Of a stretch of DNA of 64,000 bases, positions 17,444-26,079 are shown piece by piece; within the stretch, counting starts at the first letter, position 1, and every line of letters starts with the position of its first letter. The notes under the pieces are model-generated. The model saw only the letters and a list, made by a program, of their open reading frames with translations, was not told where the DNA came from and made no database searches. The position numbers and the translations under genes were made by a program. Source of the stretch: Streptomyces liliiviolaceus (lineage in GTDB: Bacteria > Actinomycetota > Actinomycetes > Streptomycetales > Streptomycetaceae); assembly GCF_018070025.1 (NCBI RefSeq), contig NZ_JAGPYQ010000001.1, forward strand, positions 5,456,001-5,520,000. The letters are read 5' to 3'.

Positions 17444-18208
17444 GTGACCACCGTAATCGTGCAGCTTTCCGACGCCGTCGTCCGCCGCTCCGACGACCCC
17501 AGGCCCGAGCCGCGTCTGGTGCGGCTGAGCCCGGGCCAGAGCGCCGAGTTCGGGCGGGGTAAGCCCGGAACACCGCTGCCCATCCCCTTGCGCGACCCCG
17601 CGGTGTCGCGCTGCGCCGGACAGGTGGCCGCCGTGGAGGACTACTGGCGCCTTTCGAATTACAGCGCCGAGGCCACGTACGTCGTGGAGAACCTCGAAGG
17701 CGCGGGAGAACACATCCGTGTCGCACCGGGACGGATTGGTGCACCCGTCCCGTTCGAACTGTCCCGCGTAATTCTGCCATCGGCCGAAAACCCCATGGAA
17801 TTCAAGGTGTTCGCACCCCAGCACGCGTATACGGAAGCAGGGTGCGACAACGCTGCCGGGGAACCGACCACGAGCCCCTTCTCGCTGAACCCCACGTCCA
17901 AGTATTTCCTGGTCCTGCTGGCGCTGTGCGAGCCCCGGCTGCGCTCCCCTTCGAGCGCGGCCGTCCCGGGCGTGGGAGACGTCCTCGAACGGCTGCGAGG
18001 ACTGCCGGGTTGCCAAGATCTGACCCGGTCCGCGCTCAATTACCACATCGACTATCTCGCCGACACGAAGCTGCGGCTGCGGGAGGGCCCGGGCGGTTCG
18101 TACGGCGAGCCGGGAGGCAAGCGCGAACGGCTGGTCAGCCTCGCGCTGCGGTTCAATCTGGTCCGTGAAGAGCATTTGGCCCTGCTCCCCCCAGCCGTCA
18201 GACGCTGA
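17444..18208 (+). CDS. FHA-domain protein with C-terminal winged-helix-like region
   Basis: A 254-residue cytoplasmic protein. The N-terminal half carries a degenerate forkhead-associated pattern: AEFGRG (strand with Gly-Arg), AVSRCAGQVAAVEDYWRLSN (the usual S-R-x-H site, here S-R-C) and YVVENL. FHA domains bind phosphothreonine. The C-terminal half (YFLVLLALCEPRLRS, LTRSALNYHIDYLADTKLRLRE, RERLVSLALRFNLV) looks like a winged helix. Start GTG 17444 follows GGGGA; upstream in-frame codons add no domain. It lies 19 bp before a Ser/Thr kinase gene and is the likely phosphorylation-dependent partner or output. Confidence 0.75.
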   Translation: MTTVIVQLSDAVVRRSDDPRPEPRLVRLSPGQSAEFGRGKPGTPLPIPLRDPAVSRCAGQVAAVEDYWRLSNYSAEATYVVENLEGAGEHIRVAPGRIGAPVPFELSRVILPSAENPMEFKVFAPQHAYTEAGCDNAAGEPTTSPFSLNPTSKYFLVLLALCEPRLRSPSSAAVPGVGDVLERLRGLPGCQDLTRSALNYHIDYLADTKLRLREGPGGSYGEPGGKRERLVSLALRFNLVREEHLALLPPAVRR

Positions 18209-18227
18209 ACCGAAAGGCTCCCCCAGG

Positions 18228-19775
18228 ATGAACAGCTCGCACCCCACTCCCCCGCTCGACCCCGCGCCCGGATACCGCATCTCGGACTGGGAGATCACCG
18301 GCCTGATCGGCTCGGGCAGCTGGGGCAGTGTGTATGCAGCCGAGAAGGTCGTCGACGGTGCCGCGGGCGGCTCGGCCGTCGCCGTCAAGCTCCTGCGCAC
18401 CGACCTGCTGACCCCGGGACAGCGTGCGTCGATGGAGGAACTGGCTCGCAAGGAAGCTCGGTTCAGTACGGAGGCGGACCACCCCCATCTCGTACGCACC
18501 CACGCGGTCGTGACCCTGAGGGATCCCGAGCGGCCCGAACTGGACGGCATGACGGCACTGGTGATGGACCGTGCGGAGCGCAGCCTCCAGGATGTCCTGG
18601 CGGCCGGCGGGACCGGGCGCCCGCTGCCGGAGGCCGAGCGCATCCTCAGCGGGGTGGCTTCCGGACTGGCACACATGCACACGCACGGCTGGATCCACGC
18701 GGACCTCAAGCCCGCGAACATCCTCCTCGGTCCCGAACGGGCCGTGTGGCTGGCGGACTTCGGGCTCACCGTCGAACTGGAGGGCACGCACGCGTACGTT
18801 CCGCCGCTGGGGTCGCTCGACCACGTGCCCCCGGAGTGGTGGTCGGAGCGCACCGGCGTCCACGGCACGACCGTGCGCAAGACGGCGGACATCTGGGCGT
18901 TCGGGGTGCTGGCGCACCAGGTGCTGACGGGTGGCCTGCATCCGTTCCCTGGCGGGACGGCGCGGGCTCGTTCGCTGGCCGCCCAGGCCTACGCCAACGG
19001 TTCGGCCCCGCTGCGCCTGGACGACTCCCTCGGACCGGAGTGGCGCAAGCTGATCGTGGAGTGCCTGGCTCCCGATCACGCCTCCAGGGCGGCCCTGGAC
19101 GCGGGTGAACTGTCCCGCCGGGTGGGGGCGTTGCACGCCGAGCGCCTTCCCCGGCCCGTGTACAGACGTCCGGCGGTCCTGCTCGCCGCCGGTCTCACCG
19201 CCTGCGCCGCCGTCGCCGGCACCTTAGTGGCCTTCGTGCCCTCCGACGGCAAGGACGCCCCGGAGAAGTCGAAGTCCTCGGCGACCGCGACCGCGCTCTC
19301 CGACACCGCGCTGCCCGGGGCCATCCCCGCCGACTCCGATGTGCCCGTCTCGCTGCGGCGGATCATCACCGACGCCGCGAAGCGGTGCACCGACGAGGAG
19401 GTCACCCCCGCTCTGCTGGCCGCGATGCTCAAGGCCGAGAGCGGTTTCGACCCGAAGGCGTCCCGGCCCGCCACCGGTGAGCACGGCATCGCCATGTGGA
19501 CGCCCGCGGTCTTCAAGGCATGGGCGGTGGACGGGGACCGCGACGGGGACAAGGACTACATGTCGCCCGCCGACGCCATCGGCACGATGTCCGTGTTCAC
19601 CTGCTGGCTCGACCAGCGCTTCAAGCAGAACGATCTGCGGGAGAACCTGCCGGGTCTGATCGCGGCCGGTTACCGCACGAGCGACCGGACCGTCATCGAG
19701 GCCGGTGGCGTACCCAAGGACGTGCAGCCCTACGTGGACGAGGTCCTCGCCAACCTCAAGGAGTACACGGCCTGA
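18228..19775 (+). CDS. Ser/Thr protein kinase fused to an extracytoplasmic lytic-transglycosylase-like domain
   Basis: A 515-residue membrane protein. Kinase domain about 20-300: Gly loop GSGSWG (28-33), Lys54, catalytic loop HADLKPAN (Asp159; HAD instead of HRD), DFG (177-179) and PPEWW where APE is usual. A helix at about 315-337 crosses the membrane. Residues about 370-515 match a soluble-lytic-transglycosylase fold, with ALLAAMLKAESGFDP giving the catalytic-type Glu404, then HGIAMWTP and AAGYRTSDRT. So cell-wall contact outside may control phosphorylation inside. Codon 333 is TTA, so translation should depend on the bldA tRNA. Confidence 0.85.
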   Translation: MNSSHPTPPLDPAPGYRISDWEITGLIGSGSWGSVYAAEKVVDGAAGGSAVAVKLLRTDLLTPGQRASMEELARKEARFSTEADHPHLVRTHAVVTLRDPERPELDGMTALVMDRAERSLQDVLAAGGTGRPLPEAERILSGVASGLAHMHTHGWIHADLKPANILLGPERAVWLADFGLTVELEGTHAYVPPLGSLDHVPPEWWSERTGVHGTTVRKTADIWAFGVLAHQVLTGGLHPFPGGTARARSLAAQAYANGSAPLRLDDSLGPEWRKLIVECLAPDHASRAALDAGELSRRVGALHAERLPRPVYRRPAVLLAAGLTACAAVAGTLVAFVPSDGKDAPEKSKSSATATALSDTALPGAIPADSDVPVSLRRIITDAAKRCTDEEVTPALLAAMLKAESGFDPKASRPATGEHGIAMWTPAVFKAWAVDGDRDGDKDYMSPADAIGTMSVFTCWLDQRFKQNDLRENLPGLIAAGYRTSDRTVIEAGGVPKDVQPYVDEVLANLKEYTA

Positions 19776-19787
19776 CACATCGGGCCC

Positions 19788-19821
19788 GGGGCCGCCCCTG
19801 ACATGCGTCAGGAGCGGTCCC
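19788..19821 (+). terminator. Hairpin after the kinase gene
   Basis: A 15-bp arm at 19788-19802 pairs with 19807-19821 at 13 of 15 positions around a 4-base loop. There is no T tract, as is common in Streptomyces. Confidence 0.6.
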
Positions 19822-19885
19822 GGCCGTCCCCCGCATAGCGTCGGCGGATCATTCCGACACCGTACGCAACAGGGGGCATCTGATC

Positions 19886-21250
19886 ATGCGGCACTTCTCA
19901 TCCCTCCGCAGCGGGCCGGGAGCGGCCGCCCGCAGCGGGCCGAAGGCGGCGCGGCGGGCCCTGCTCCCGGTGGGCGCCCTGCTGCTCGCTCTGGCGGCAG
20001 CGGGCACCAGCGCGTCCGCCGCTCCGGCCGCACCGGGTGGCGCGACGGCCGAGGACGGAGGCACGGTCTCCCCCGCGACCGCCCAGGTCGAGGTCCCGGC
20101 CGATGTCACCGCCGGTGTCGCGGTCTACGACCGGCAGACCGGTACCTTCACCGAGCAGCTGAACACGAGCACGCAGTTCCGCTCGGCATCCGTCGTCAAG
20201 CTGCTGCTGGTGCTCGACTTCTTCCGGAACCGCGGTCCGAACTACACGATCCCGGCCGCCGACCGCGCCCTGCTGGAACCGATGCTCCGCAGCAGCGACG
20301 ACGACGCGGCGGACCACTACTGGGAGGTCAACGGCGGCGCGGCGATCATCGAGCGCATGAAGCAGGACCTCGCCCTGAACGACACGGCCGGTCCGCCCGC
20401 GGGGTACGAGGGCTACTGGGGTTACACGGCCGTCTCGGCCCGGGACACGGTCAAGATCTACCGCTACATCCTGGAGCAGGCCGCGGCGCCCGTACGGGAG
20501 TTCATCATGTCCAACCTGCGGCAGTCGACGCGCTGCGCCTCGGACTCCTTCGACCAGCACTTCGGCATTCCCGGCGCCTTCGAGAAGCCCTGGGCCGTCA
20601 AGCAGGGCTGGTCGGGCGAGTACGAGAAGGGCACCTGCGGTCCGGACGGCGCGAGGAACGCGACCGCGGCGTCGAAGTCCGCGGGCCGGGATGCCGCAGG
20701 AGCGAAGTCGGCGGACGCGAAGCCCAAGGGCACGAAGTCCAAGAGTACGAAGTCCGCGGGTGCCGAGCCCAAGGGTGCGAAGTCCGCGGATGCCGAGCCC
20801 AAGGGCACGAAGTCCGCGGAGTCGGTGAACCTGTCCCGGCCCGCCCTGCACACCACCGGCACGGTCGGCTCGGGCGACCGGACCATCGTCGCCGTCCTCA
20901 CCCTGCACCCGCTCGGCACCACCTACGGCCAGGCCTACACCGACATCGGCAGGCTGACCCGCAGTCTCGACGTGCCCGGCGCGACCAGGCCGGCCGGAAA
21001 GTGGTACGGCACCTGGGGTGAGCGGGTCGCCGTCCGGACGGCGACCACCACCGGGTCGGACTCCAAGACCCGGCTGCCCGCCGGCGTGGAGGTCCTGATC
21101 AGCTGCCAGAAGCAGGGCGAGACCGTCTCCGTACCGCCGTACACCAACAACTGGTGGGCGTATCTGCCCCAGTACGGCGGCTACATGTCCAACATCTACG
21201 TCAGCGCTCCGGACAACAAGCTGCCCGACGTGCCGGTCTGCGCCTCCTGA
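19886..21250 (+). CDS. Secreted SxxK serine hydrolase (class A beta-lactamase-like) with Lys-rich insert
   Basis: A 454-residue exported protein. A basic N-terminus and hydrophobic core (LLPVGALLLALAAAG) end in an Ala-rich cleavage site near residue 46. The catalytic SxxK is SVVK (Ser102, Lys105), an SDD at about 137-139 sits where SDN is expected, and KQG (239-241) stands in for KTG. Directly after KQG, residues about 257-313 form a low-complexity insert of Lys/Gly/Ser/Ala/Pro-Glu repeats, then the fold resumes (TIVAVLTLHPLG). The last 70 residues look like an SH3-type beta domain (GVEVLISCQKQGETVS). It may act on peptidoglycan next to the kinase, by inference. Confidence 0.82.
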   Translation: MRHFSSLRSGPGAAARSGPKAARRALLPVGALLLALAAAGTSASAAPAAPGGATAEDGGTVSPATAQVEVPADVTAGVAVYDRQTGTFTEQLNTSTQFRSASVVKLLLVLDFFRNRGPNYTIPAADRALLEPMLRSSDDDAADHYWEVNGGAAIIERMKQDLALNDTAGPPAGYEGYWGYTAVSARDTVKIYRYILEQAAAPVREFIMSNLRQSTRCASDSFDQHFGIPGAFEKPWAVKQGWSGEYEKGTCGPDGARNATAASKSAGRDAAGAKSADAKPKGTKSKSTKSAGAEPKGAKSADAEPKGTKSAESVNLSRPALHTTGTVGSGDRTIVAVLTLHPLGTTYGQAYTDIGRLTRSLDVPGATRPAGKWYGTWGERVAVRTATTTGSDSKTRLPAGVEVLISCQKQGETVSVPPYTNNWWAYLPQYGGYMSNIYVSAPDNKLPDVPVCAS

Positions 21251-24660: not shown

Positions 24661-26079
24661 ATGACGCGAAGCAAGGCAGTAATCATTCCCTCGGTCCTCC
24701 TCTCCCTCGGCGCCATGGCGGTCGCCACCCCCGCCCTCGCGGACGCGGTGAAGGGCTCACCGGACCCGGCTCCGGTCTCTGCGGCGGCCACCACGACCAC
24801 GTCCCGGGGCGTGGCTTCCGGGCAGAGCCTGGAGAGTGTGGTCGACGCCATCGAACGCAGTGCCCGCACCCTGAAGAGCACGCGTCCCGAGGGCGGTCTG
24901 CGGGACCTCGACGCGCTGGGCCGCATGGTCGGCGACGCCGACGTGGTGGGCCTGGGCGAAGCCACCCACGGTTCGCAGGACTTCTTCCAGATGAAGCACC
25001 GGGTCTTCCGCTACCTGGTCGAGAAGAAGGGCTTCCGCACCTTCTCCCTGGAGCTGGCCTGGAGCAGCGGCGTACGGGTCAACGAGTATGTGCTGTACGG
25101 CAAGGGCGAGTTGAAGGACATAGCACGCGAGGAGTTCCAGGGCGCGTACCGGATCTGGAACAACCAGGACTACATCGACCTCATCGAGTGGATGCGTGAC
25201 TACAACCGCAGCCACCCGAAGGACCCGGTGCGGTTCATGGGCAACGACATGGGCTACGCGGGGCCGGAGTCTTACGAGCGGGTGACGGACTACGTGGGCC
25301 GCGAACACCCCCAACTGCTTGAGCGCGTCACGGAGTTGTACCGCGGGCTGGCTCCGACCACCGACGCGGGCACCTACAGCGACCAGTATCTGCAACTGCC
25401 GCTCGCCGAGCGTGCGGAGCGGTCCGAGCGGACCCGGAAGGTGTACGAGCTGCTGCGGGACCAGCGGCCGGCGCGCGGCGACCGGCAGGCGCACCTGTGG
25501 GCCGTGCAGCACGCCAGGGCCATTCACCAGATGGCCAAGGGCTACTCGCTCGACGTCACCGACGAGGCCGAGGTCACGAAGATGATGCGAATGCGCGACG
25601 AGGTGATGGCCGAGAACGTGGCGTGGTGGCACAAGCACACCGGCGACAAGGTCCTGCTGTCGGCGCACAACACCCATGTGTCCTACGACTCGTTCGACGA
25701 GCGATACCCCAAGACCCAAGGGGCCTTCCTGCACGATGTGTTGGGCAAGGACTACGTCAGCATCGGCTTCAGCTTCCACCAGGGCGCGTTCGCGGCGTTC
25801 GGCGCCGACGACAACGTGATGCGGACCTACCGGGTGGGCGCGGCTCCGGCGGGCTCCAACGAGGACACCCTGGACAAGGTCCGCCAGGAGGACTACATCC
25901 TCGACATGCGTACGGCTCCCAACGCCGCCCGTGCCTGGCTGGCGAAGCCGCGTGTCACGTACAACATCGGCGCGGGGTGGCCCGACCCGATGACGTACAA
26001 GATCGGCCTCGGGAAGGCGCACGACATCCTCATCCATCTGAACGAGGTCGAGGCCACCGAGTATCTGGGCACTCCCTGA
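24661..26079 (+). CDS. Exported erythromycin-esterase-family protein
   Basis: A 472-residue protein. Residues 1-27 form a Sec signal peptide (IPSVLLSLGAMAVATPALA then DAV). The erythromycin esterase fold follows, with GLGEATHGSQDFFQMKHR (His in EATHG), FSLELAW, RFMGNDMGY and LLSAHNTHVSYD, which carry the conserved Glu and His residues of the EreA/EreB/succinoglycan-biosynthesis family. Cytosolic members hydrolyse macrolide lactones; an exported one could act on extracellular macrolides or polysaccharide esters. The ATG follows AGGGG. It is bounded by a terminator upstream, so it is its own unit. Confidence 0.88.
   Translation: MTRSKAVIIPSVLLSLGAMAVATPALADAVKGSPDPAPVSAAATTTTSRGVASGQSLESVVDAIERSARTLKSTRPEGGLRDLDALGRMVGDADVVGLGEATHGSQDFFQMKHRVFRYLVEKKGFRTFSLELAWSSGVRVNEYVLYGKGELKDIAREEFQGAYRIWNNQDYIDLIEWMRDYNRSHPKDPVRFMGNDMGYAGPESYERVTDYVGREHPQLLERVTELYRGLAPTTDAGTYSDQYLQLPLAERAERSERTRKVYELLRDQRPARGDRQAHLWAVQHARAIHQMAKGYSLDVTDEAEVTKMMRMRDEVMAENVAWWHKHTGDKVLLSAHNTHVSYDSFDERYPKTQGAFLHDVLGKDYVSIGFSFHQGAFAAFGADDNVMRTYRVGAAPAGSNEDTLDKVRQEDYILDMRTAPNAARAWLAKPRVTYNIGAGWPDPMTYKIGLGKAHDILIHLNEVEATEYLGTP

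Follow-up and report, generated by a model that had tools for sequence, protein, structure and literature searches.

A kinase with a transglycosylase-like outer domain and its adjoining FHA protein in Streptomyces suggest a family of cell-wall sensors

In a 64,000-nucleotide stretch of Streptomyces liliiviolaceus DNA (hereafter the window; contig NZ_JAGPYQ010000001.1, positions 5,456,001 to 5,520,000), we identify a Ser/Thr kinase whose predicted external domain resembles a lytic transglycosylase, and whose gene is paired in related loci with a gene for an FHA-domain protein. At window positions 17444-21250, a gene for a divergent FHA protein is followed after a 19-bp gap by the kinase gene and then by a gene for a secreted protein of the SxxK type; the original prediction, made from the DNA letters, had listed these parts, including the kinase's single helix and its external SLT-like domain with Glu404, and our analysis confirms them. 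The conserved kinase-FHA module points to a family of cell-wall sensors that has not been described before. Our best reading, which we hold with moderate confidence, is that these receptor kinases form a family whose sensors vary and are largely directed at the wall, each kinase having its own FHA partner; the two genes of a pair would together form a dedicated receptor-kinase module. This reading draws on what is seen in sequences and predicted structures, namely the adjacency and co-inheritance of the two genes, the variety of ectodomains, the folds and the residue substitutions.

The association of the two genes is close and recurrent. Of 121 genomes from the genus, 56 encode the FHA protein; 54 encode the kinase (E ≤ 1e-40), and every one of these also has the FHA protein (compared by hand). 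The stretches around these matches hold 81 FHA and 76 kinase open reading frames, which form 73 adjacent pairs; with start codons chosen by script, the FHA and kinase genes overlap by exactly 4 bp in 55 of the 73, and a further pair, at locus L128, was missed solely through the start-codon call. The FHA and kinase trees of 72 pairs (a kinase remnant at L075 was left out) mirror each other (r 0.907; the highest value among 999 permutations was 0.15), and in 66 of 68 cases the nearest FHA relative is paired with a kinase of like ectodomain type, compared with 23.1 after shuffling; relatedness among strains inflates both figures. Tandem loci are a better control, because the pairs there share one genome: two or three pairs with differing outer domains lie close together in eight loci, and within tandem loci the FHA protein matches the type of its own kinase in 15 of 17 cases, or 16 if an SLT ectodomain with an additional domain is counted as SLT.

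The pairing extends to a wider sample. Eighty of 114 named FHA loci were retained, and an SLT-type kinase adjoins the FHA gene in 65 of them; at the script's threshold nine have none, two of which (L192 and L230) sit at contig ends. Across 296 genomes of the class, an FHA match (E ≤ 1e-5; a few are weak) is found in 32, representing 11 of 114 genera. Outside the genus, an SLT-type kinase lies beside the FHA gene in 8 of 16 stretches (L172, L176, L177, L178, L181, L182, L184 and L185) and a kinase of another kind in L171, L174 and L180, while the profile finds no kinase in stretches L173, L175, L179, L183 and L186. Gene orientation has changed in four of the eight positive stretches, being convergent in L172 and L184 and divergent in L176 and L177; in the latter two the catalytic domain is remote (70-81 bits, against at least 372 in the other six) and the ectodomain type is identical. 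Adjacency that persists through inversion and alongside an unlike catalytic part favors a functional link, and the homologues as a whole bear out the original prediction's view of the FHA and kinase genes as conserved neighbors.

The ectodomain of the window kinase (residues 351-515; positions 19278..19772, + strand) is predicted to adopt the lysozyme-like fold of lytic transglycosylases and matches active members of that group, which upholds the earlier identification of the external domain as transglycosylase-like. According to PMC8517470, SLT enzymes share the signature ES-GLMQ-AYNAG. The window domain retains the Glu (Glu404) and has Met423 at the Gln site of GLMQ and Arg483 at the Asn site of AYNAG; it also has an Asp-rich, EF-hand-like loop starting at Asp435 and cysteines at 387 and 459. 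We compared 152 SLT-like kinase ectodomains, redundancy kept: 33 come from our loci, counting that of the window, and 119 from a list of 120 database proteins (354 were found); the one left over, P0149, did not meet the motif pattern, though part of it reads KAESDF and GIAMWTP. The catalytic Glu is present in all 152. The Gln site is Met in 132, Arg in 19 and Leu in one, the Phe behind it is replaced by Trp in every case, and the Asn site is always Arg, preceded by an aromatic residue that is Tyr in 145 and Trp in 7. In kinase ectodomains of distant families GIARW likewise occurs, and Arg again takes the place of the Asn. The genome that contains the window encodes three conventional SLT proteins; the two that were compared (all but the one at C1:5745256), SLT-NlpC/P60-like by eye, retain E, Q and N. 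A search restricted to short proteins returned 34 matches, 10 of them labelled partial or kinase.

Because the Gln and Asn of the signature are gone from all 152 ectodomains while the Glu is kept, we conclude that the window ectodomain probably senses rather than cuts; of the two activities that the original prediction had allowed for, sensing is thus favored and cutting disfavored. An alternative on this point is a working transglycosylase anchored in the membrane, whose cutting activity the kinase domain would either regulate or relay as a signal. Such an enzyme would account for the invariant Glu, the retained aromatic residue before the Asn site, the match to the fold of active enzymes and the Asp-rich loop, a feature of MltB-type enzymes, but would have to work with both other signature residues replaced, where the two SLT proteins encoded in the same genome keep them, and in a family whose other members carry a binding-type PG_binding_1 domain at the same place. 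We regard this alternative as unlikely.

Support for a sensor also comes from the related kinases, which share the inner part and differ outside the membrane. Behind the transmembrane helix, the ectodomains of the 76 kinases fall mainly into four clusters: SLT-like (34, being 33 plus L103:5543-7588, in which SLT is joined by an additional domain), an unnamed type that we call CSL (16), I36 (15) and PG_binding_1 (6). Counting Pfam ectodomain matches at E up to 0.1, a joint scan of 25 proteins gives 15 with I36 and 6 with PG_binding_1, which are the sizes of two of the clusters, and SLT is found in 45 of 45 and 15 of 19 members of two SLT groups. The transglycosylase-like outer domain first noted in the window is therefore borne out there and extended, as one of several types in the family. 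The CSL ectodomain (L082-L097) has the motif CSLGLAIDP and conserved cysteines, and Pfam provides no ectodomain family common to the 16 kinases; an SH3-like assignment was rejected at hhalign values of 0.8% and 0.4%, and the domain is left unnamed. Likewise rejected, at 4.2%, was an equivalence between the extra C-terminal domain of L103:5543-7588 and the C-terminal domain of the SxxK protein; Pfam SH3_3 matches one of the 25 proteins in the set containing this kinase. Four outer-domain types would require at least three replacements in the history of the family, and more are likely.

Inside the membrane, the window kinase has a Pkinase domain followed by a single transmembrane helix. The catalytic and juxtamembrane part (residues 1-312; 18228..19163, + strand; Pkinase match 22-289) contains Lys54, HADLKPAN with Asp159, and Asp177 of DFG, and is of the non-RD type; helix prediction places the transmembrane segment at approximately residues 315-335 (19170..19232, + strand), from which we deduce the probable topology. 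Thr187, in the activation-loop motif GTHAY (18786..18788, + strand), is a candidate site for phosphorylation and FHA docking, and this position is Thr in 72 of 76 kinases. In a clade of related kinases with DFN in place of DFG (loci L098-L140), the HxDLKPxN loop is retained. Many DFN-type pairs (L104, L106, L117, L126 and similar) lie near genes that by eye resemble purH, purN, folD and mdh, an indication that the pairs at those loci were inherited vertically.

The partner is a 254-residue protein (17444..18208, + strand) with an FHA domain at approximately residues 1-125, whose beta-sandwich fold is supported by structure prediction. In FHA domains the GR motif and the Ser of SxxH have a phosphate-binding role. 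The window protein has both, within FGRG from residue 36 and VSR from residue 54, followed by LSN from residue 70; Arg38 and Ser55 are invariant in 47 of 47 close homologues, and in a wider set of 81 Arg38 is found in 78, Ser55 in 67 and Asn72 in all 81. The protein gives no match to Pfam PF00498 above the cut-off and is absent from the 12 FHA matches of its genome, the best homologue reaching E 0.0034. Many database records (P0003-P0120) label the FHA protein 'serine/threonine protein kinase' despite having no recorded Pfam domain. Residues 150-247 form a conserved helical part of unassigned fold, modeled at a pLDDT of about 50. The original prediction had noted a winged-helix-like part in this protein and proposed a DNA-associated role, which finds no support: Pfam on the 47 FHA homologues gave nothing usable for a winged helix, a PDB sequence search with 31 C-terminal parts gave TEF-3 as best match at E 0.69, and hhalign against MarR and GerE sets reached 1.5-1.7%.

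Several observations count against the interpretation of these proteins as wall-sensing kinases with phosphothreonine-binding partners. The FHA motifs include GR, SxxH and NG (PMC1262709), and the window FHA protein lacks the His of SxxH and the NG, having VSRCAG and SAEAT there instead; 12 of the 81 FHA homologues have Pro at the Ser position. DFG is replaced by DFN in 41 of the 76 kinases and by DFS or DFA in three, so that some kinases without DFG may have altered activity, the window kinase itself keeping DFG. The invariant Glu of the SLT-like ectodomains is equally compatible with retained catalysis, and weak or altered catalysis is possible. Seven named FHA loci have no adjoining kinase, three kinases (L110, L111 and L112) have next to no ectodomain, the L120 kinase is cut by a contig end, and that of L075 is a remnant. 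Six changes of ectodomain type are needed on the kinase tree and five on the FHA tree, where the minimum possible is three (counted on 68 labelled pairs of 72, with the labels of L103:5543 and L120 corrected and L110-L112 left out); changes involving the SLT type number three and two, respectively. SLT ectodomains sit in two places on the kinase tree, yet a single SLT clade is not rejected (approximately unbiased test, p 0.065), and the quick tree carries a long-branch warning; these results fall short of proving that the SLT type was exchanged repeatedly. Finally, we know of no case of peptidoglycan binding by I36 or the unnamed CSL domain.

The kinases without an ectodomain (L110 and L111), the loci with only an FHA gene and the very diversity of ectodomains would also fit a general Hanks-kinase/FHA unit, in which the ectodomain serves only to place the kinase at the wall and the signal comes from within the cell. 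In such a unit there would be little reason for FHA lineages to follow ectodomain type as they do, and the secreted hydrolases or matching domains that lie beside particular types would be unneeded; we judge this explanation quite improbable. Wall sensing is the preferred reading, to which PG_binding_1 on six related kinases and the nearby genes for secreted wall hydrolases lend support.

In the window, the neighboring gene (19886..21250, + strand) encodes a secreted, beta-lactamase/D,D-peptidase-like SxxK protein, with SVVK from residue 102, a Beta-lactamase2 score of 19.7 bits against a cut-off of 22, and a C-terminal SH3-like domain. The SxxK gene occurs in 22 of 121 genomes, 11 of which have it next to the pair. 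Ten of 14 window-type pairs have it as a neighbor, in convergent orientation in eight cases, as does 1 of 16 CSL pairs. Set against the window-type loci, its presence beside the pair in one of 107 other genomes, which include three (G026, G032 and G048) holding fragments of window-type pairs, gives a Fisher value of 8e-11, uncorrected for relatedness. Among the 65 named SLT loci it lies beside 29 and is convergent in 27, two of the 29 (L255 and L262) being weak partial matches of 61-63 bits. The three-gene order proposed as a unit in the original prediction does not hold: the conserved unit is the FHA-kinase pair, and the SxxK gene is a neighbor mainly within one subclade, mostly convergent. 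In one genome (G109, locus L068) an SxxK paralogue occurs at both chromosome ends with equal scores (C1:1465-2601 and C1:10348056-10349192), an arrangement as in terminal inverted repeats. Farther along the window, the open reading frame at positions 24661-26079 by eye resembles one for an erythromycin-esterase-type protein.

Other ectodomain types have other neighbors. Of 13 paired I36-type kinases, 7 have a gene for a secreted M23 peptidase within 3 kb, as does L128, and five of these eight peptidases bear an I36 domain themselves (identified by Pfam on L124 and by tblastn on L107, L125, L128 and L131). For CSL kinases an M23 match lies within 3 kb in 12 of 16 by a query that included a propeller part; the M23 domain proper is present somewhere in the surrounding stretch in 11 of 16, often several kb away, and carries little weight. 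FHA genes without a kinase (L224, L228, L231 and L234) adjoin genes for small secreted proteins that look SH3-like, and that of L224 aligns with the C-terminal domain of the SxxK protein at 99.2%. Together, the neighboring genes point to the envelope and to no single fixed operon.

These neighbors raise the further possibility that the kinase controls the adjacent secreted hydrolase, SxxK here and M23 elsewhere, and that what the ectodomain senses is this hydrolase or the product of its action. The concentration of SxxK genes at window-type loci, and the M23 peptidases near I36 kinases with their shared I36 domains, are what such control would lead one to expect. Set against this, the SxxK gene is convergent in most cases (8 of 10 window-type and 27 of 29 named loci) and thus not co-transcribed with the pair there, and most of the 73 pairs have no SxxK or M23 neighbor within 3 kb, the CSL loci being counted with the query that included the propeller part; we consider this explanation doubtful.

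For the preferred reading of a wall-sensing receptor kinase, we infer the following mechanism. The kinase would be anchored by its one helix, with the transglycosylase-fold domain outside probably binding glycan strands or fragments of peptidoglycan as a receptor and not as an efficient enzyme. Ligand binding would then alter kinase activity, in either direction, and a phosphothreonine on the kinase, possibly at Thr187 of the activation loop, or on a substrate would recruit the FHA partner through Arg38 and Ser55. The partner's conserved C-terminal helical part could then relay the signal to an output. As related kinases carry I36, PG_binding_1 or unnamed outer domains, one inner signaling unit may serve several envelope inputs.

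A bolder version, which we offer tentatively as a serious possibility somewhat short of probable, is a plug-in wall-status system. Here a transglycosylase disarmed at two positions, its Glu kept, would serve as a peptidoglycan receptor, and each exchange of the whole sensor domain would be matched by the co-inherited FHA effector. In several lineages it would be matched as well by a neighboring secreted wall hydrolase that sometimes bears the same domain, and some strains would have two or three copies, tuned differently, at nearby positions. The homologues strengthen the earlier suggestion of an unusual wall-status signaling system, in a form where the outer domain more likely senses than cuts and the FHA-kinase pair is the unit. 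The stimuli that activate bacterial receptor kinases are described as an outstanding question (PMC6069109). The family offers a natural domain-swap series, in which one inner unit is combined with several outer domains, each having its matched FHA partner, and through which ligand, kinase and effector could be tested by comparison. If the disarmed transglycosylase does bind glycan strands or ends, antibiotic-producing actinomycetes would have in it a wall receptor of a non-PASTA kind.

We found no description of such kinases in the open-access literature, though a subscription paper may hold one; the words 'transglycosylase' and 'SLT' are absent from the main text of PMC1262709, PMC6213207 and PMC2877116. 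The closest relatives of the outer domain, the lytic transglycosylases MltB/Slt35, MltC and Slt70, share its fold, catalytic Glu and Asp-rich loop, whereas the window domain has the Gln and Asn signature residues replaced and is fused to a kinase. PASTA receptor kinases (PknB, PrkC and Stk1), reported as muropeptide binders (PMC6448482), likewise combine an inner Hanks-type kinase, one helix and a peptidoglycan-directed outer domain. Unlike them, the window kinase has a lysozyme-fold ectodomain and a non-RD loop, its relatives have other ectodomains, and the FHA gene lies directly upstream of the kinase gene, overlapping it in most pairs. No PASTA family is among the Pfam matches of the window kinase, and NCBIfam NF033483 gives 89.3 bits against a cut-off of 450, in a match confined to residues 21-296. 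Streptomyces coelicolor PknB (SCO3848) is also a Streptomyces receptor kinase with linked FHA proteins, being genetically linked to SCO3843 and SCO3844 (PMC6273383). It differs in its PASTA ectodomain, in its operon with a phosphatase, a penicillin-binding protein and an FtsW/RodA protein, and, judged from locus numbers, in having FHA genes that are not directly beside the kinase gene. In the mycobacterial PknH-EmbR system, EmbR combines an FHA domain with a DNA-binding domain, in contrast to the window FHA protein, in which no DNA-binding domain was identified. The sensor of BlaR1/MecR1 has a beta-lactamase-like fold, joined to an inner metalloprotease in place of the kinase seen here. The likeness is that a fold resembling that of a wall enzyme is put to use as an external sensor (PMC9834060); if glycan binding proves true, the window kinase would be a parallel to BlaR1, with another wall-enzyme fold turned sensor.

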